Source: Gammaproteobacteria bacterium
GTDB lineage: Bacteria > Pseudomonadota > Gammaproteobacteria > Pseudomonadales > Halomonadaceae
Reading direction: 5' to 3'
Length of the DNA stretch: 9,898 nt
Assembly: GCA_023485185.1 (NCBI GenBank)
Contig: JAMCZP010000033.1
Location: 1 to 9,898, forward strand
Numbering within the stretch: position 1 is the stretch's first letter; every line of letters starts with the position of its first letter. A program made the position numbers and the translations under genes. The notes under the pieces are model-generated. The model did no database searches. It was given only the letters and a program-made list of their open reading frames with translations, and had not been told where the DNA came from. Of the stretch, positions 1 through 9,898 are shown piece after piece.

Positions 1-650
1 GCTTCTACCTTGGCAACGGCAGGCAGTGATGGCATTTGCACACAGGCTGACAGCACAATCGCATCGATATTGGTTAAGTCGAGACTAGCGACAATCTCGG
101 GTAGATTGGCGGGGTCGTGGCGGGCAACGTCTAGGTTGTTGGGGATCTCAAGCGCCCGGTAGTCGAGCACCTCAATACCTTCCTGGCGGATATAGTCCAC
201 CACCATCTCGGTCAGCGGCTTCATATAGGGCGCCACTACCACCACACGCTTGGCTTTCATCACACCCAGGGCATCCACCAGCGCACCTGCACTGGTGACC
301 ACTGGCGTATCGCAGCCATTCTCTTGGGTGCGGCTGCGTAGCCGCTGCTGGGATTCACGATGGTAGCCGGGGCCCATGGCCATGATGGCGACCAGGCATG
401 CGTAGCCCATAACATCCACTGCCGCATCAGACAGCTCCAGGGCGCAGCGGTCTGACTCTGCATCCATGGCGGCCAGCTCATCCTTACTGACGGTTTTCAT
501 ACGCATACGGCTGGAGTGGAAGGTAAAGCGTTCTGGTCGAATCAACTGCCGCGCCGCCAGCATCGCTGGGATCTCAGTCTCCATGGTGATGTTGGAGCTG
601 GGGACAATCTGGCCGATACGGTATGTTTTAGTGGTAGCGCTGGAGGTCAT
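1..650 (-). CDS. nicE: Maleate cis-trans isomerase NicE, 3' end cut by window
   Basis: Converts maleate to fumarate, the last step of nicotinate breakdown, feeding the TCA cycle. It belongs to the Asp/Glu racemase-like maleate isomerases, which are cofactor-free and use two cysteines. About 216 residues are visible, starting MTSSATTKTYRIGQIVPSSN. The family is near 250 residues, so about 35 C-terminal residues lie left of the window. The two expected cysteines are present: Cys85 in GYACLVAIM and Cys203 in LSACVQMPS. The N-terminal PSSNITME stretch is typical of the substrate loop. The start at 650 is preferred because an AAAGG lies 9 bases upstream; an in-frame ATG at 656 leaves only 3 bases. 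It follows nicD by 15 bases, and its ribosome site lies right after the nicD stop, so the two are probably translated from one message. The family call is certain; the symbol rests on context and the paired cysteines. Confidence 0.93.
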   Translation of the reverse strand, partial: MTSSATTKTYRIGQIVPSSNITMETEIPAMLAARQLIRPERFTFHSSRMRMKTVSKDELAAMDAESDRCALELSDAAVDVMGYACLVAIMAMGPGYHRESQQRLRSRTQENGCDTPVVTSAGALVDALGVMKAKRVVVVAPYMKPLTEMVVDYIRQEGIEVLDYRALEIPNNLDVARHDPANLPEIVASLDLTNIDAIVLSACVQMPSLPAVAKVE

Positions 651-665
651 GATCATTGGCCTTTG

Positions 666-2758
<2,093 letters not shown>

Positions 2759-2809
2759 GAATTAATTTCTGAAAATATTTTTGTAGGATTAAATGCTGAT
2801 TGATCGTGA

Positions 2810-2822
2810 TAATCGATTGATT
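2810..2822 (-). promoter_or_regulatory. Candidate IHF binding site
   Basis: The minus strand reads AATCAATCGATTA, which matches the IHF consensus WATCAANNNNTTR at every specified position. The minus-strand bases just upstream (plus positions about 2823-2845) are A/T-rich, as in strong IHF sites. It lies between the two promoter candidates, about 40 bases from the nicA -35 and 52 from the nicC -35. A bend here could bring the two operator regions together. AT-rich DNA yields chance matches, so this is a candidate only. Confidence 0.45.
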
Positions 2823-2862
2823 TTAATGTATTTTTTATTATATTTTCAGTATTTTTAAAAAC

Positions 2863-2892
2863 TTGAAAAAAGTATCCATTGAGTGCTATACG
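2863..2892 (+). promoter_or_regulatory. Candidate promoter for nicAB and downstream genes
   Basis: TTGAAA (2863-2868) is followed after 18 bases by TATACG (2887-2892). A TG one base upstream of the -10 (2884-2885) makes it an extended -10. The predicted start near 2899 falls inside the GTTTAATAG repeat copy at 2892-2900, which is well placed for a repressor. The leader to the nicA ATG would be about 150 nucleotides. Confidence 0.5.
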
Positions 2893-2958
2893 TTTAATAG
2901 AGCATTTTTTATGGTGTACGCACCTTTAATGGTCGTGGTTATTTTGCTTCGCACTCAT

Positions 2959-2970
2959 CTGGTGCATCAG
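2959..2970. promoter_or_regulatory. Imperfect dyad CTGGTGCATCAG in the nicA leader
   Basis: A 12-base inverted repeat with a single mismatched base pair (CTGrTGCAyCAG). It lies about 60 bases downstream of the predicted nicA transcription start. It could be an operator half-pair or chance; nothing else marks it. Confidence 0.25.
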
Positions 2971-3047
2971 GCAGGGTTTAATAGCTAGGCTTTATTAGTA
3001 ATATCTAAGTAAGAAGGCCGCTTTAACAATAACGATGATGATCCCCT

Positions 3048-3536
3048 ATGACGCTAAAGCTGACAGTTAATGGACAGGTGAGGGAAGTGGCGGTGCCATT
3101 GAATACGCCGCTGCTTAATGTCTTGCGTAATGATCTAGCGCTCAATGGCCCTAAATATGGCTGTGGTTTGGGCGAATGCGGCGCGTGCAGTGTACTGATT
3201 GATGGCATGGCGGCGCGTGCTTGCGTGCTGCCCGTATCGGCTGCCGCTGGCCATGACATTACGACGCTTGATGGCCTTTCCCAGAATGGTCAGCTTGATC
3301 CCGTGCAACAAGCATTTATCGACGCGCAAGCGGCTCAGTGTGGTTACTGCTTGAACGGTATGATTATAACGATTCGTGCGCTGCTCAATCATAACGCCCA
3401 GCCCTCTCCTCAACAGATACGTGCCGCCCTTGAACATAACCTCTGCCGGTGTGGTACCCATGTTGAAATTCTCCAAGCCGCACAACGTGCCGTGGTGATC
3501 AATGCCGCCGCGCAGCAGGAGTCGCCTCATGGGTAA
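3048..3536 (+). CDS. nicA: Nicotinate dehydrogenase small subunit NicA (2x 2Fe-2S)
   Basis: Iron-sulfur subunit of the membrane-linked nicotinate hydroxylase, carrying electrons from the molybdenum site toward the haem c domains of NicB. The protein has 162 residues, close to the family size of about 157. The plant-ferredoxin-like N-terminal domain has Cys39, Cys44, Cys47 (GCGLGECGAC) and Cys59. The C-terminal helical domain has Cys98, Cys101 (CGYC) and Cys133, Cys135 (CRC). All eight cluster ligands of the xanthine-oxidase type small subunit are present. The ATG at 3048 is the only plausible start: the frame is closed by a TGA at 3039-3041. It has no good Shine-Dalgarno sequence (the upstream bases read GATGATGATCCCCT), so initiation may be weak or helped by another signal. 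Its 3' end overlaps nicB by 8 bases, implying coupled synthesis of the two subunits. Confidence 0.95.
   Translation: MTLKLTVNGQVREVAVPLNTPLLNVLRNDLALNGPKYGCGLGECGACSVLIDGMAARACVLPVSAAAGHDITTLDGLSQNGQLDPVQQAFIDAQAAQCGYCLNGMIITIRALLNHNAQPSPQQIRAALEHNLCRCGTHVEILQAAQRAVVINAAAQQESPHG
3517..3521 (+). promoter_or_regulatory. Ribosome binding site that fixes the nicB start
   Basis: AGGAG lies 7 bases before the ATG at 3529, inside the end of nicA. The in-frame ATG at 3502 has no comparable signal. This site matters because it shows that the short N-terminus of NicB is a real, well-initiated start and not an annotation slip. Confidence 0.8.
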
Positions 3537-6500
3537 GCGTACGCTGCCATCCCAAGACGATAATGGGGAGGGTTTACCTTCGCAGCTTACCCATGTGCGC
3601 TATGGTGTTGTCGTCCGCCCACCTTACTACCACTGGAACGGTGAACGCTTTGAGAGCGCTCACTTAGTGAGTGTCGATAGGGCCAGCGTGGCGTCATTGC
3701 CAGGTCAGGTTGATGTGGTGGTGGAAGGCAATTTCGTGGGCGTGGTGGCGGAGAGTTTAGCGGTAGCGAGAGACGCCGCTAAACAGCTGCAGCTTGAGTG
3801 GCAAGCGGTTCCCCGCGAGCCCAATGAAAGGCTAAAGCAAACGCTAAGGCATAGTGAGAAAGCGGGCAGTGAGCACCGTTCACTGCGCCATCAAGAGCCT
3901 CAAACCGGCCTCTCAGCGCAACGTGTATATGGCTGGCCTAGTCGTATGCGCTGGGGCAATTACCCCGGCTGGGTAGTCGCCGAGGTTAGCGATCATCAGT
4001 TGAAGATATGGGGGCAAACCACGACCCCCGTGGCACTTCAGCAGGATTTGGTTAGCTTAACCGCCCTGGAGGCTAGCCAAATTGAGCTTTACAGCCTTGA
4101 TCAGCAGCCGATGTCTAGCCAAGCGACAGGCCTTGGACGCCACTGCGGCGATGATGCCGCCGTGGATGCTGCGCTTATGTCCCAAACGCTGGGTTGCCCG
4201 GTAGCGGTCTGGCTAGATGCACGCTATACACAAGACGTAGAGGCGCTAGGCCAAGCCCAGCGAATGTCGTTAAAGGCTGAGCTTACCGATAGTGGCGAAA
4301 TAGCCCGCTATCACTACCAGCAGGCTAACAGCAGCGGTGAAGTAGCTGCGGTTGGGCTCTGGTTAAGCGGCAGGGCAACTGAGCCAGCCGCTATACCAGA
4401 AACTATTCCAGAAACTATACCGCAAGTGCCAGCAGACGATAGCGATCCAACTGCGTTGTCTGCCTCTGTCTTGTCGCCTTATGTCTTTCGAGACCAACAT
4501 CTTTCAGCGCGACTCCAGCAGCCTGGCCAGACGCCTAGCAGCGCCACATTAGTAGACATGCAGCAGGCCTTTGCGCGTGAATCATTTTTAGATGAGGTGG
4601 CTCGCGATAGCGGGCAAGACCCCGTTTCGCTGCGCCTTCGTCACCTTGAGGATGCCCGGTCTATCGAGCTGATTGAGTCGGTAGCCAAGCGTGCTGGGTG
4701 GCAAGTGCCATTCAAGAAACCCACCGACTCAGCGCCGCAAGACCTGCTGCAGGGGCGCGGATTTGCGTTCGCTCAGTTGCCTGATCGGCATCAGCGGATG
4801 GAAGCCGGGGTGCGCTCAGCTTGGATTGCCGATGTTGCGGTTAACCGGGTAACGGGGGATGTCCAGCTAACGCGATTAATCGTTGGTCAAGATGATGGCC
4901 CTGAGGTGGATACGGCGGGCCTGCAGCAAACGCTGCAAGAGCGAATACTGGGTGAAGCCCGCCCCCTTTTGGGGCAAGCACCTGGGTTTGATGAGTGGGG
5001 CGATGGGAGTGATGCGCCAGAACGAGGCGTTGAAGTGGTGCCAAGTGCGTTAGTTAAACGCGAAAGTCCAGCCGTTACCCAAACAAAAACAGCGTCGTTG
5101 CGTCCGGCCCCTAGTGACTTATTAACGGGTGCAGAGCTTTCACCTGGTGTTGCGGTTATCGCCAATGCACTCTTTGATGCGACCGGCATCCGTTTTCGCC
5201 AACCACCCTTTACAGCTAAGCGCGTGCGCGATGCGTTAAAAGCGTCGGCGACGGAGGGTGCAGCACAGCAGCGTTTACCTAAGCGAGCCGCTAGCCGCAG
5301 GTGGTTAGCCGCCGCTGCGCTGACCACGGTCGCAGGTACCGCGGTAATGGCCTGGCCCTGGAAAAGCACTCTTGCGCCGGTCGCTCGCCCTGCCGCCAAT
5401 CTTTATTCTGCTGAAACCATTGAGCGTGGGCGATTGGTCGCCGCCGCGGGTGACTGCGCGGCATGCCACACTTCTGAGGGGGGAAGTACCAATGTGGGAG
5501 GGCGGGCGTTTGAAACACCCTTTGGTACGCTTTACAGCACTAATATTACCCCGGATGAAGCCACCGGGATTGGCCAGTGGTCTTACGCGGCGTTTGAGCG
5601 GGCAATGCGCCACGGTATCAGCCGTGATGGTAGCCACCTGTATCCTGCTTTTCCCTACACAGCGTTTGCCAAAACAAGCGATACCGATTTGCAGGCGCTC
5701 TATGCCTACTTAATGGCCCAGCCGGCCGTTGCCGCTGAAAAGCCGACCAATGAACTCACTTTCCCCTTCAGCGTGCGCGCCTTAATGGCGGGCTGGAACG
5801 CGCTTTATCATGACCCCACCCCCTTCCAGCCTGACCCTATGCAGAGTGAATTGTATAATCGCGGGGCTTACCTGGCCGAAGGCTTAGGCCACTGCAGCGC
5901 CTGCCATAGCCCACGCAATGTCATGGGTGCAGAGAAAAGCGGTAACGCTTACTTGGCAGGTACCTTTGTGGATGGCTGGGAAGCACCGCCGCTCAATACG
6001 CTGTCGCAAGCACCCATTGCTTGGAGTGAAGCATCGCTTTTCGACTATCTGCGCTATGGCGAGTCGGCGCTGCACGGTGTTGCCTCAGGCCCTATGGCAC
6101 CGGTCGTGGCGGGCTTGGCAGAACTACCTGAATACGATGTGCGGGCGATTGCCCACTATGTGGCTGCGCAGATGCAGGCTCCCTCCGGCAATAGTGAGGC
6201 AACCATGGCGGCGGCTGAACAACGCGTGGCCAGTGCAGCGGTTAGCTCGCCAGGCATGGAGGCGGGGGAACGCCTGTTCGAGGGTGCCTGTGCGGCCTGC
6301 CATGTGGAGACCGGGATCCCTAGTTTTTCACGCGCAAGTACTCATCTTGCGCTGAATACCAACGTGCATAGCGATCACCCCGATAATGTTATTCAGTCAA
6401 TTCTTGGCGGTGTCCACGCGGATCATGTGCCTGGCATCGGTAGTATGCCGGGCTTTGCCGAGAGTTTTAGCAATACCCAAGTCGCTGATTTAGCGACCTA

Positions 6501-6606
6501 TCTCCGAGCGCGTTTTGCACCTGACAAAGCGCCTTGGCAACAACTAGAAAAACGTATCACTGATTTACGCCAGCCTCACCACAACAACACTCACTCTACT
6601 CCCTGA
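3529..6606 (+). CDS. nicB: Nicotinate dehydrogenase large subunit NicB, short molybdopterin domain plus three cytochrome c domains
   Basis: Partner of NicA; hydroxylates nicotinate to 6-hydroxynicotinate and passes electrons through haem c. It has 1025 residues against about 1187 recalled for P. putida NicB. Residues about 1-90 align with the a/b-hammerhead (VVRPP at 28-32, then VDVVVEGNFVGVVAE). Later molybdopterin-family landmarks are GRHCGDDAAVDAAL from 203, ESFLDEVA at 351-358, and ANALFDATGIRFR at 545-557. After KRAASRR comes one hydrophobic helix (about 592-609); basic residues on its N side suggest the haem part is periplasmic. Three CxxCH haem sites follow: Cys643-His647, Cys789-His793 and Cys921-His925. 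The segment that normally precedes the hammerhead, with a Gly-Gln-Gly molybdopterin contact, is absent, and the usual GxGE motif near the end of the domain reads TGAEL (Glu536). A 12-base tandem repeat (4393-4422) encodes IPET-IPET in a Pro/Asp-rich linker at 289-305. The identity is secure; full molybdenum activity is uncertain. Confidence 0.9.
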   Translation: MGKRTLPSQDDNGEGLPSQLTHVRYGVVVRPPYYHWNGERFESAHLVSVDRASVASLPGQVDVVVEGNFVGVVAESLAVARDAAKQLQLEWQAVPREPNERLKQTLRHSEKAGSEHRSLRHQEPQTGLSAQRVYGWPSRMRWGNYPGWVVAEVSDHQLKIWGQTTTPVALQQDLVSLTALEASQIELYSLDQQPMSSQATGLGRHCGDDAAVDAALMSQTLGCPVAVWLDARYTQDVEALGQAQRMSLKAELTDSGEIARYHYQQANSSGEVAAVGLWLSGRATEPAAIPETIPETIPQVPADDSDPTALSASVLSPYVFRDQHLSARLQQPGQTPSSATLVDMQQAFARESFLDEVARDSGQDPVSLRLRHLEDARSIELIESVAKRAGWQVPFKKPTDSAPQDLLQGRGFAFAQLPDRHQRMEAGVRSAWIADVAVNRVTGDVQLTRLIVGQDDGPEVDTAGLQQTLQERILGEARPLLGQAPGFDEWGDGSDAPERGVEVVPSALVKRESPAVTQTKTASLRPAPSDLLTGAELSPGVAVIANALFDATGIRFRQPPFTAKRVRDALKASATEGAAQQRLPKRAASRRWLAAAALTTVAGTAVMAWPWKSTLAPVARPAANLYSAETIERGRLVAAAGDCAACHTSEGGSTNVGGRAFETPFGTLYSTNITPDEATGIGQWSYAAFERAMRHGISRDGSHLYPAFPYTAFAKTSDTDLQALYAYLMAQPAVAAEKPTNELTFPFSVRALMAGWNALYHDPTPFQPDPMQSELYNRGAYLAEGLGHCSACHSPRNVMGAEKSGNAYLAGTFVDGWEAPPLNTLSQAPIAWSEASLFDYLRYGESALHGVASGPMAPVVAGLAELPEYDVRAIAHYVAAQMQAPSGNSEATMAAAEQRVASAAVSSPGMEAGERLFEGACAACHVETGIPSFSRASTHLALNTNVHSDHPDNVIQSILGGVHADHVPGIGSMPGFAESFSNTQVADLATYLRARFAPDKAPWQQLEKRITDLRQPHHNNTHSTP
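4393..4422 (+). repeat. 12-base tandem repeat inside nicB
   Basis: Two and a half copies of ATWCCAGAAACT encode IPETIPETIP, in frame, within a low-complexity linker of the molybdopterin-like domain. Copy number could vary between strains without breaking the frame. Confidence 0.75.
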
Positions 6607-6627: not shown

Positions 6628-6816
6628 ATGAAACGCAGTAAATGGATATGGCTAGTATGGGCGGTCGTCCTGCTGAGCTATTTAGTGCCTTACACCCTAT
6701 TGAGCGGCGTGGCGCTCTGGTATGGCAGCTTTTTGTTTTGGGCCCTTGCAGGGCTAGTCGTCATTGCACTGAATGTGTTTATCACGAAAGATTTTGAGGA
6801 GCACAGCAATGACTGA
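6628..6816 (+). CDS. Small two-helix membrane protein paired with the symporter
   Basis: A 62-residue protein with two hydrophobic segments, about 6-26 and 33-53. The N-terminus is basic (MKRSK) and the tail is charged (KDFEEHSND), so both ends are predicted to be cytoplasmic. The ATG has a GAGGTGG just upstream, and the gene starts 21 bases after nicB. Its last 8 bases overlap the start of the symporter gene. Small two-helix proteins are often encoded directly before sodium:solute symporters (the DUF3311, DUF485, DUF4212 and YhdT types). Topology, size and the TM2-KDF ending fit that role best; the closest style may be DUF3311 or YhdT, but I cannot assign the family firmly. The overlap suggests equimolar production and a subunit or assembly role in pyridine-acid uptake. 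That role is inference. Confidence 0.8.
   Translation: MKRSKWIWLVWAVVLLSYLVPYTLLSGVALWYGSFLFWALAGLVVIALNVFITKDFEEHSND
6796..6801 (+). promoter_or_regulatory. Ribosome binding site that fixes the symporter start
   Basis: GAGGAG ends 7 bases before the ATG at 6809 and lies within the upstream small gene, supporting a coupled start and ruling out the longer frame from 6773. Confidence 0.75.
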
Positions 6817-8317
6817 GTCACTCATCTGGTGGTCCATTGCCATCTACTTAGTGATCGCGATAGGCATTGCGATTCTGTCCCGCCAAGGCCCTTCAGAAAG
6901 TATGTCTGGATACTTCTTGGGCAATCGACAAATGAACGGCTTTGTCTCAGCGCTAAGTTACAGTGCCACCACCTATAGCGCCTTTATGATGGTGGGCTTG
7001 GCAGGGCTGACGTATGCCGGCGGCGTGGGCGCGCTGGGCTTTGAAATTATCTATTTTGCCGGTGTTTCGCTGGTGGCTATCTTTGGGCCCAAGTTCTGGG
7101 CTGTTGGCAAGAAGTTTGGTTTTGTGACGCCAAGCGAGATGTTGGGCCACCGTTACAACAGTAAGCACGTGGCGATGGCTGTCTCGATTGCCAGCTGTAT
7201 TTTCCTCATTCCTTATTCAGCCGTGCAGCTCGCGGGTGTTGGTTATCTGTTGCAAGGCATTACCGATGGGGCGATCACCTTTAGCACCGGCGTGATGCTG
7301 GCAACTGTGATTGCTATCTTCTTCTCCTATATTGCGGGCATTCGTTCGGTAATGTGGACCGACTCGCTCCAGGCCATCATGATGATTGTCGCTTCAACGC
7401 TGGTAGCCTTCCTGGTTATTCAAGGCTTGGGTGGTTTCAGTGCGCTATTCAATACTCTGGCGACGGAGCACCCGCAGTCGTTAACCGTGCCGGGTTCAGG
7501 TCTATTTAGCTTCGTTACTTTCTTGGGGCTTACCATCCCCTGGTTCTTCTTTAGCCTGTCTAATCCTCAAGTTAGTCAGCGTCTGTTTATGCCTTCTTCG
7601 CTGCGCTCCATGCGTCACATGCTGATTGGCTTTCTGGTATTTGGCTTTATCTACACCATGGTTTCCGTGCTGTGGGGCTTCTCGGCCTTAGCCGCCTTCC
7701 CGAGCCTTGAGCGCGCTGATTTAGCCACGCCCACGTTGTTGGCATCGGAGTTTGTTCCGCCAGTACTCGGGGTGATTGTGATGATCGGCATTATGGCCGC
7801 TGCTGTGTCTACCATTGATTCGATCATGCTGACCCTGGCCTCTATGGTTTCTCGTGATGTCTATGCCAACGTTAAACCTAACGTTAGTGAAAAGCGCCAA
7901 CTGCTGGTGGGTAAATTTGTCGTACCGGTGATTGCGTTAATGGCGCTGGCCTTTGCCGAACTGCAGCTTGATCTTATTGCGGTGCTGTCAGTGGCTGCCT
8001 CATCAGGCTTAGTGGCGATGGTACCTGCCATTATCGGTGCCTTTTACTGGAAACGCGGTACCTCTGCCGGTGCCTTAGCGAGTGTGGTCGGCACCAGTGT
8101 CTTCGTACTGCTGATGTATGCCACCGGTAACTCTTTGTTGGGCTTACCCTCCGGCGTATGGGGCATTGTGGTCGCTAGTGCGCTGTTTATTGGCGTTAGT
8201 TTAGCCACTAAACCTCATCAAGCCTCTACGGATGCTTTCTTTACGGCCATCACTGAAGAGTTGAGTAAAAAGCGTCACCCCACCACCGCACAGCCGACCA
8301 AAGGAGCGGCCGTCTAG
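6809..8317 (+). CDS. Sodium:solute symporter family permease, likely nicotinate uptake
   Basis: Inner-membrane transporter of the SSS family, which couples uptake to sodium. It has 502 residues and about 13 hydrophobic segments. Family signatures are visible: the broken first core helix SYSATTYSAFMMVGLAG (50-66), GIRSVMWTDSLQ at 177-188, and AAVSTIDSIMLTLASMVSRD at 331-350, whose Ser/Thr residues form the sodium-2 site in characterised relatives. The ATG at 6809 is chosen because GAGGAG lies 7 bases upstream and the protein then begins directly with the first membrane helix. The frame is open further back to 6773, but that stretch encodes the end of the small upstream protein in another frame. 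Its place between nicB and nicX points to nicotinate, 6-hydroxynicotinate or a similar carboxylate as substrate. The substrate is inferred from context only; by sequence it could carry other carboxylates. Confidence 0.88.
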   Translation: MTESLIWWSIAIYLVIAIGIAILSRQGPSESMSGYFLGNRQMNGFVSALSYSATTYSAFMMVGLAGLTYAGGVGALGFEIIYFAGVSLVAIFGPKFWAVGKKFGFVTPSEMLGHRYNSKHVAMAVSIASCIFLIPYSAVQLAGVGYLLQGITDGAITFSTGVMLATVIAIFFSYIAGIRSVMWTDSLQAIMMIVASTLVAFLVIQGLGGFSALFNTLATEHPQSLTVPGSGLFSFVTFLGLTIPWFFFSLSNPQVSQRLFMPSSLRSMRHMLIGFLVFGFIYTMVSVLWGFSALAAFPSLERADLATPTLLASEFVPPVLGVIVMIGIMAAAVSTIDSIMLTLASMVSRDVYANVKPNVSEKRQLLVGKFVVPVIALMALAFAELQLDLIAVLSVAASSGLVAMVPAIIGAFYWKRGTSAGALASVVGTSVFVLLMYATGNSLLGLPSGVWGIVVASALFIGVSLATKPHQASTDAFFTAITEELSKKRHPTTAQPTKGAAV

Positions 8318-8449: not shown

Positions 8450-9481
8450 ATGGATCATGCAAGCTTTACGGAAATCTGCCTTCAGCAGTTAAAAATGTCT
8501 GGTGTACATGAAGGTGAGAAGCTGGTGGTGCTGACCCAGGGCAGCGAACGCCTTGATTATGCTGACGCCTTTCTGGCGGCGGGGCAGCGTTTAGGCGCCA
8601 ATATGTATCATATGCGCTTGCCCGCGCCGCTACCCACAGGTGGTTGGAACGTGGGAACAACGGGGCTTGCCAGCATGCCCGATGTGGTGGAAGCGCTCAA
8701 AAACTGCGATATGTTGATCGACTGTATTTTCCTGCTTTTCTCCCCGGAGCAAATGGCGATTCAAGCAGCCGGTACGCGCATTCTAACGGCGGTTGAGCCC
8801 CCAGAACTGCTAGCCAGAATGATGCCGACCAAGGAGTTAAGGGAGAAGGTCGAACTAGCCGCCGCGCTGTTGGAAAAAGCCAAAGTGATGCGCATCACAT
8901 CGCCCCATGGTACCGATGTCACCTATCAGCTTAATACTTACGCTACCGTCGCCGAATATGCTTGTACTGATGAGCCTGGTCGCTGGGACCACTGGCCGTC
9001 GGGCTTTGTCTTCACCGGCGGCGATGACGATGGCGTGGATGGCACCATTGTGGTGGCGCCCGGTGATATCCTGCTTCCCCAAAATATGTATGTCAGAGAG
9101 CCCATTACGTACACCATTGAGAAGGGCTGGATTACCGATATACGTGGCGGCCTGGATGCCGAATTAGTGAAATCCTATATGGATAGCTTTAACGACCCGC
9201 GCGGGATGGGCATGAGTCATGTCGGATGGGGCATGAATCCTAATGCCAAATGGCACCGCATGGTGCCGGGTGAGTTTCCCGGTGGCATGGGTATGGAACC
9301 CCGCAGTTTCTACGGCAACGTGATGTTCTCAACCGGCCCGAATAGCGAGCTGGGCGGGTCTAACGATACCGCCTGCCATCTGGATATTCCGATGCGCAAC
9401 TGTTCACTGTTTCTCGATGATGAACCCGTCGTGATTGATGGTGATATCGTCGTTAAAGAGCTGCAGATGGCTAGAAGCTGA
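8450..9481 (+). CDS. nicX: 2,5-dihydroxypyridine 5,6-dioxygenase NicX
   Basis: Fe(II)-dependent ring-cleaving dioxygenase that opens 2,5-dihydroxypyridine to N-formylmaleamate in the cytoplasm. The protein has 343 residues, near the family length of 350, in the leucyl-aminopeptidase-like M29 fold. The iron ligands are visible as His257 (MSHVGWGMNP) and the pair His310/Asp312 (ACHLDIPM). In P. putida NicX they are His265, His318 and Asp320 as I recall, so the spacing of 53 and 2 is preserved. The ATG has AGGAG 5 bases upstream. It follows the symporter gene after 132 bases and ends just before a strong terminator, so it closes the rightward set. In P. putida nicX sits with nicC instead, so its place here is a rearranged layout. 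No truncation or odd residues were seen. Confidence 0.96.
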   Translation: MDHASFTEICLQQLKMSGVHEGEKLVVLTQGSERLDYADAFLAAGQRLGANMYHMRLPAPLPTGGWNVGTTGLASMPDVVEALKNCDMLIDCIFLLFSPEQMAIQAAGTRILTAVEPPELLARMMPTKELREKVELAAALLEKAKVMRITSPHGTDVTYQLNTYATVAEYACTDEPGRWDHWPSGFVFTGGDDDGVDGTIVVAPGDILLPQNMYVREPITYTIEKGWITDIRGGLDAELVKSYMDSFNDPRGMGMSHVGWGMNPNAKWHRMVPGEFPGGMGMEPRSFYGNVMFSTGPNSELGGSNDTACHLDIPMRNCSLFLDDEPVVIDGDIVVKELQMARS

Positions 9482-9530: not shown

Positions 9531-9898
9531 TCAACTCCACACTTTTAGCTGATCTCGATAATCATCTTGCGCTTGGCTGGCGCTTACCGGCGTTAGCCAC
9601 ACTTCGGTGCCGGGAAGACACTGGGAGAGGGTCGCGCAGGCAATCGGCGTGAGGGCGCCTAAGCGTGGGTAGCCACCTATTGTCTGACGGTCGTTCATCA
9701 GCACGATGGGTTGGCCGTCCGGGGGTATCTGTACGGCACCTAGCGGAATACCTTCCGAAATAATGCCCGTGAGCGAGCCATGCAGGCTGGGGCCAGTGAG
9801 CCGAACGCCCATGCGGTCAGCGCGGTTATCCACTGTCCATGGTTGGTTAAACGCCTGAAAAAGGGAGCGCCCGCTAAACGAGGCGATTTGCGAACCCA
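9531..9898 (-). CDS. PxpC/KipA-family carboxyltransferase, C-terminal part, 5' end cut by window
   Basis: The 3' end of a gene for the biotin-dependent carboxyltransferase-like family, which includes the 5-oxoprolinase subunit C (PxpC, earlier KipA/YbgK). About 121 residues are visible, ending KVWS. Family landmarks are FSGRSLFQ, then DNRADRMGVRLTGP, then GIPLGAVQIPPDGQPIVLMNDRQTIGGYPRLG, a very characteristic block. The frame continues without interruption to the window edge, so the true start lies beyond it and the GTG at 9833 is internal. Such genes normally follow a PxpB/KipI gene and act in 5-oxoproline (pyroglutamate) hydrolysis. A role in nicotinate breakdown is not supported: it is on the opposite strand, convergent to nicX and beyond its terminator. 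Homologues also exist as urea or allophanate carboxylase modules, so only the family is firm. Confidence 0.88.
   Translation of the reverse strand, partial: GSQIASFSGRSLFQAFNQPWTVDNRADRMGVRLTGPSLHGSLTGIISEGIPLGAVQIPPDGQPIVLMNDRQTIGGYPRLGALTPIACATLSQCLPGTEVWLTPVSASQAQDDYRDQLKVWS

Follow-up and report, generated by a model that had tools for sequence, protein, structure and literature searches.

A degenerate molybdopterin-type domain on the probable cytochrome subunit of a three-part nicotinate hydroxylase in a halomonad

In the halomonad locus studied here, the protein encoded by nicB begins at the a/b-hammerhead of its molybdopterin-type domain, so that the front segment of the domain is missing, which raises the question of which protein hydroxylates nicotinate in this system. 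The window, that is, the whole stretch of DNA analysed (9,898 nucleotides), carries nicA directly adjoining nicB inside a nic pathway cluster, as expected for a NicB2 of the tripartite type. The names nicC, nicD, nicE and nicX are those that we take to apply to the neighbouring genes from knowledge of the pathway. The features of the window are the following:

3..656, minus strand: nicE-like maleate isomerase, running off the window (Pfam Amdase)
666..1484, minus strand: nicD-like alpha/beta hydrolase (Pfam Abhydrolase_6)
1481..2743, minus strand: nicC-like FAD monooxygenase (Pfam FAD_binding_3)
3048..3536, plus strand: nicA, 2Fe-2S subunit, 162 aa, eight Cys (ORF; Pfam Fer2 and Fer2_2)
3517..3521, plus strand: AGGAG, nicB ribosome-binding site (read from the sequence)
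3529..6606, plus strand: nicB (NicB2-type), 1025 aa, with Mo-like putatively dead domain, membrane helix and triheme cytochrome c
3586..5253, plus strand: degenerate molybdopterin-type domain, residues ~20-575, from the hammerhead on
4009..4029, plus strand: WGQTTTP, catalytic-type counterpart WSGTQNP (Gln lost; alignment)
4129..4155, plus strand: GLGRHCGDD, catalytic-type counterpart CYGRNCADD (partly kept; alignment)
4393..4422, plus strand: IPETIPETIP low-complexity linker, lineage-specific, pLDDT mostly <50 (alignment, model)
5125..5139, plus strand: TGAEL, catalytic-type counterpart GxGES (catalytic Glu lost; alignment)
5302..5361, plus strand: hydrophobic segment taken as membrane helix, residues ~592-611, after an R-rich stretch (by eye)
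5455..5469, plus strand: haem site 1, CAACH (invariant in alignment)
5893..5907, plus strand: haem site 2, CSACH (invariant in alignment)
6289..6303, plus strand: haem site 3, CAACH (invariant in alignment)
6773..8317, plus strand: sodium:solute symporter (Pfam SSF)
8450..9481, plus strand: nicX-like 2,5-dihydroxypyridine dioxygenase (equivalent position in relatives)

The nicX-like protein had no Pfam or NCBIfam family match at 1e-5. Beyond it, positions 9531-9896 hold the end of a carboxyltransferase-domain gene that is PxpC-like (CT_A_B), and apparent pxpCBA genes adjoining nicX were seen by eye in three further loci (L001, L003 and L160).

The start of nicB is well supported, as the initial annotation had held: the ATG at 3529 follows the AGGAG at 3517-3521 and overlaps the intact nicA by 8 nt, and an in-frame stop lies 10 codons 5' of it, so that no longer nicB start is possible and a start-site error is ruled out. 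It was verified by alignment that the protein begins at the hammerhead and that about 200 residues, corresponding approximately to residues 1-222 of the separate Mo subunit described below, are absent from its front, in line with the 150-200 estimated earlier. This segment had been said to be encoded nowhere in the window, and indeed neither the ORFs nor the three forward frames of positions 2760-3530 gave a match to it. The segment as a small separate gene was likewise rejected, none being present in the window and the relatives encoding a whole Mo subunit instead. A deletion in the read, which had been named as a possible source of the gap, is ruled out by 64 short homologues, the trait being common to homologues from 97% down to ~30% identity.

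The rest of the domain has diverged as well. The motif alignment set 66 short rows against 48 catalytic-type rows (43 fused NicBs and five separate Mo subunits), and the aligned residues that touch Mo or pterin were assumed to be those known from structures of the xanthine oxidase family. Among the 254 columns conserved in at least 95% of the 48 catalytic rows, 77 are kept by at least 90% of the 66 short rows and 136 are kept by fewer than 10%, 45 of the latter being gaps in the window. The GTG loop and the TIAS..IQ stretch, present in 48/48 catalytic rows, are absent from the window and from 66/66 short rows; the predicted loss of an N-terminal molybdopterin contact was therefore correct, although in NicBs this contact reads GTG and not Gly-Gln-Gly. 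The catalytic Glu, which aligns with the GVGE of PaoC (5g5g/5g5h), is found in 48/48 catalytic rows, and its column in the short rows holds D (26), G (19), E (8), S (4), A (3) and others. In the window this column is Gly534 and the Glu of TGAEL lies two places off, which bears out the earlier reading of GxGE as TGAEL. The divergence, rightly recognized, goes further than had been described: the Gln of GTQNP (48/48 catalytic rows) is replaced by T, V, A and others in the short rows, LRG has mostly lost its R and G and the REQE motif is gone too, the CYGRN loop being partly kept (G, R).

In agreement with this alignment, the MoCoBD_1 match of the window falls below the Pfam cut-off (24.8 vs 27 bits), MoCoBD_2 was not found in the window NicB by Pfam at E <= 1, and cytochrome c stretches were detected. 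The predicted structure of the domain keeps the xanthine oxidase family fold, with 8gy3_C as its best structural match, and lacks the Mo/pterin-binding and catalytic motifs of that family; the best PDB sequence match of the window cytochrome is 8gy3_A. The repeat-bearing linker noticed in the middle of the domain is real and disordered in the model, and within the 29 rows displayed its IPETIPETIP is confined to the window and P0008. The C-terminal half of NicB holds three CxxCH haem sites that are invariant in 26 rows; like the membrane helix and the eight Cys in the translation of NicA, both Fe-S domains of which match Pfam, they are intact as stated. The view that the chain is not decaying consequently stands for the haems, the helix and NicA, but not for the Mo-like domain, which is under weaker constraint and shortened in some Burkholderiaceae.

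Judging from sequence comparison, the short form constitutes a class rather than a chance occurrence. When NicB residues 1-580 were used as query in a homology search, the best 120 of 144 matches included at least 64 short homologues of 906-1037 aa whose start, as in the window, falls at the hammerhead or close to it (P0001-P0061 except P0002, of 661 aa, plus P0112, P0113, P0115 and P0116), with identities to the window domain of 97% down to ~30%. Among the matches listed from P0062 to P0110, 43 are of fused length (1152-1270 aa), and the fused-length rows aligned carry sequence of the type GHVDLGTGIRTALAQ at the front. The best 80 loci from a scan of named genomes, 75 of them fused (58 covered at full length) and five short, served as a control. 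GxGES was found in 75/75 fused loci and GTG in 73/75, the exceptions (L051 and L070) ending at contig ends, and a separate Mo ORF, sought by its N-terminal motif, was found in 0/75 fused loci and in 5/5 short ones (L001-L004 and the Cupriavidus locus L053). When aligned over 695-748 aa with the Mo part of three fused NicBs, the separate Mo subunit (NicB1) showed 57-59% identity; its identity to the degenerate domain is 32%. An unrooted, long-branched tree was built from 49 rows selected by hand; all 20 of its short rows lie on one side of a branch (100/100), and the halomonad and Cupriavidus separate Mo subunits group among the fused NicBs (99/97, with P0073, P0095 and P0109). One old duplication of a fused NicB, after which one copy lost the cytochrome and the other the active site, would explain this tree.

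The distribution of the separate Mo subunit was surveyed in 275 genomes of Halomonadaceae, calling it at no less than 60% identity to that of L001. The window domain was matched in 53/275 genomes, and in 45 of these 53 the match is a short NicB (39-91% identity, some in pieces). The separate Mo subunit lies on the same contig in 45/45 short-NicB genomes, at 5.1-14.7 kb from the short NicB (median 5.3 kb; 41/45 within 8.6 kb), and at this threshold it was found without a short NicB in 0/275 genomes. Among the 30 of the 45 short NicBs covered by the motif check, GTG is lacking in all, and the single GxGE string encountered (L119) falls within a linker, far from the motif. The short NicB is apparently broken or cut in three of the 45 (G021, G225 and G256), and a stop falls inside the NicB1 match in two genomes (G115 and G225).

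In L001, L003 and L004 (Vreelandella venusta) the Mo subunit is a separate ORF of 756-759 aa that starts with the missing segment and lies past nicF-like and MarR-like genes; the ORF that comes next corresponds to XdhC in L159. In L002 the locus ends inside the separate Mo ORF. Two close relatives, G249 (L159) and G223 (L160), hold the whole cluster in identical order, with NicB1 and the XdhC-type gene, and MocA-like genes stand beside NicB1 in L004 and L166, with matches below the NCBIfam curated cut-off. The window reaches only 3.5 kb to the left of nicB and, going by these relatives, its own NicB1 would sit just beyond the left end. An apparent tctAC transporter pair was seen by eye between nicF and the MarR/Mo genes in L159 (10642-13723) and L002 (2304-5396), both of which show 8.3-8.4 kb spacing.

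A different Mo subunit encoded elsewhere was also considered: other MoCoBD_2 proteins exist (four genomes), but it is the one with at least 60% identity to L001 that tracks the short NicB. Eight of the 53 matching halomonad genomes are without a short NicB, and seven of the eight have a Mo homologue at ~40%. In all four of these that were inspected (L161-L164) the Mo and cytochrome genes are, by eye, separate and no dead domain is present; the separate Mo and triheme cytochrome genes of L161, L162 and L164 probably represent a different hydroxylase. The Mo protein of L161 and L162 has a Tat-like start, and the triheme cytochrome frame of L163 appears broken by eye.

These findings suggest that the window NicB is probably the NicB2 cytochrome subunit of a three-part nicotinate hydroxylase, in which the Mo domain carried by NicB2 is dead and hydroxylation is performed by a separate NicB1. 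This explanation draws on the observed motif loss, predicted fold, co-occurrence and linkage in relatives and purifying selection, from which we infer a loss of cofactor binding, an electron path and a docking role. Among the alternatives offered by the initial annotation, it is the scaffold for electron transfer, with another protein doing the hydroxylation, that gains support, by the complete Mo gene in 45/45 halomonad genomes with a short NicB. The N-terminal ~575 residues of NicB2 would descend from a Mo subunit and would no longer bind or use the cofactor, whereas full-length NicB1, whose gene is accompanied by an XdhC-type gene and, in part of the genomes, by a MocA-like one, would hydroxylate at Mo. 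Electrons would then pass from Mo (NicB1) through the two 2Fe-2S clusters of NicA and the three haems of NicB2 to the respiratory chain, and the dead domain would most likely be kept as a docking platform by which NicA, NicB1 or both are held at the membrane-anchored cytochrome. In the window NicB the hydrophobic segment comes after about 590 residues; since no export signal was seen before the Mo-like domain and an R-rich stretch precedes the segment, the domain would be cytoplasmic and the haems periplasmic. Electrons would then have to cross the membrane to reach the haems, as in the fused NicBs.

Selection on the domain was assessed in 26 halomonad genomes plus the window, using pairs with dS of 0.05-1.5, which share branches and are not independent. 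The median dN/dS was 0.198 for the dead domain (109/351 pairs), never exceeding 0.34, against 0.071 for the cytochrome (180/351 pairs), 0.075 for nicA (153/351 pairs) and 0.082 for the Mo subunit (131/300 pairs). In paired comparisons the dead domain was above the Mo subunit in 96/96 and above the cytochrome in 94/96, and below 0.5 in 96/96. A ratio of ~0.2, higher than that of its partners, thus indicates that the domain is constrained, but less. Such relaxed constraint, with the excess over NicB1 in every pair, also fits a decaying remnant, that is, a NicB2 Mo domain that has had no function beyond correct folding since NicB1 took over and is being lost at varying speeds. This alternative is unlikely, though not negligible: the dN/dS of the domain still stays near 0.2, the halomonad copies examined have it at almost its full length, and 24 positions show new conservation that is specific to the short class and absent from the catalytic rows.

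The Burkholderiaceae bear on both explanations. A Cupriavidus-like dead domain was found, under a strict threshold (E <= 1e-70), in 2/399 Burkholderiales genomes, one being the query's own and the other, G592, also having a separate Mo ORF. With the Cupriavidus Mo subunit as query, 136/398 Burkholderiaceae genomes matched (E <= 1e-200), and among those matches listed 21 frames have at least 1200 aa (fused length), the rest having 728-1012. Twenty-seven Mo loci of non-fused length were examined. In the group with 74-98% identity, a dead domain matching at least 505 aa lies near NicA in 11/12, the exception (G1024) being at a contig end, and in the group with 62-66% identity a shorter dead domain occurs in 12/13, with a broken frame in G1046. 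No dead domain was seen with the Mo subunit in four of the 27 loci, namely G1024, G868 (neither dead domain nor triheme protein in the regions examined), G1017 (NicA and Mo, no triheme protein in the region examined) and G749 (L218), which has a plain NicA-Mo-cytochrome operon. The shortened forms mainly keep the part matching window residues ~343-575: in 11 aligned proteins the parts matching residues ~351-475 and 501-575 are present at 90% or more on average, and the front shows a filling of 0.32-0.86 per 25 residues, partly non-homologous upstream reading. Both this shortening and the plain operon of G749, which indicates that the domain is not essential in principle, would suit a functionless remnant, but the retention of the same C-terminal core in 11/11 aligned shortened proteins argues against it.

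It is very improbable that the shortened domain remains catalytic through a changed mode of binding molybdopterin cytosine dinucleotide, the different cofactor binding that the initial annotation had considered: among the motifs examined only the partly kept CYGRN loop speaks for this, against the replacement of a catalytic Glu whose position drifts, the loss of the GTQN Gln and the LRG loop, the absence of GTG/TIAS in all 66 short rows and the complete Mo subunit accompanying every halomonad short NicB. Scarcely credible is a split enzyme receiving the missing segment in trans, like the Eubacterium barkeri NdhL/NdhM pair, although the initial annotation had also offered a missing part on another polypeptide. 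The match of 3hrd_B, the nicotinate dehydrogenase medium Mo subunit, to that segment shows that the fold allows a split, but the partner gene codes for a complete Mo subunit, down to the parts that NicB2 retains, and the retained half has lost its motifs as well.

If the window NicB is a NicB2 with a dead domain, live NicB1 and dead NicB2 could tentatively be pictured as a lopsided pair resembling the Mo protomers of the xanthine oxidase dimer, the pseudoenzyme having turned into a membrane tether and electron-path scaffold and the halomonad-to-Burkholderiaceae series recording its trimming to a minimal core (window residues ~343-575); this extension is possible rather than likely. The source annotations of the short proteins read 'c-type cytochrome', 'aldehyde oxidase' and 'nicotinate dehydrogenase subunit B', so that the hydroxylase may be sought in the wrong gene. 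Among molybdenum hydroxylases the system would provide a naturally occurring pseudoenzyme domain whose live counterpart is encoded within the same cluster, and its occurrence in more than one bacterial class with graded shortening means that the minimal scaffold can be mapped. Additionally, expressing the enzyme is suggested to need three genes plus XdhC, perhaps also MocA.

Among known systems, the fused NicBs of Pseudomonas, Bradyrhizobium and others (L005-L080 except L053) share the Mo-type domain, the hydrophobic segment and the triheme cytochrome, but they are ~200 aa longer and, unlike the window NicB, keep GTG, TIAS, GTQN, LRG and GxGES. A review describes a three-gene NdhS/NdhL/NdhM system of 21, 82 and 46 kDa, the third subunit being called a flavoprotein (PMC10331938). 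Going by that description, NdhSLM has a separate Mo subunit of ~82 kDa, as is probably the case here, and its third subunit of 46 kDa would leave no room for a Mo-like domain (compare L218). The window differs from this plain three-subunit type, represented by L218, in that a Mo-like domain precedes the cytochrome. The 21/82/46-kDa enzyme is presumably that of Comamonas testosteroni JA1, judging from a shared reference, and its 46-kDa subunit is presumably a cytochrome c, as opposed to the flavoprotein of the review. Tripartite nicotinic acid hydroxylases (NicA, NicB1, NicB2) are reported for Burkholderia gladioli and Bordetella (PMC10269826), and the gene list of Delftia acidovorans Cs1-4 places nicA next to nicB2, named 'nicotinate dehydrogenase subunit B', with nicB1, named 'aldehyde dehydrogenase', at the far end of the nic cluster (PMC4572682). 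The likeness to Delftia lies in nicA beside nicB2 and, in the halomonad relatives of the window, in nicB1 elsewhere in the nic cluster; a dead Mo domain on NicB2 is not mentioned in the accessible text of these reports, and here the host is a halomonad and the domain nearly full length. The comparison with Burkholderiaceae used the genomes of the survey, and no mention of a degenerate Mo domain in NicB2 was found in the accessible portions of the open-licence PubMed Central literature. Finally, in the membrane aldehyde dehydrogenase of Gluconobacter oxydans (8gy3), which supplies the best matches here, the large (Mo) subunit is a chain of its own, apart from the cytochrome.
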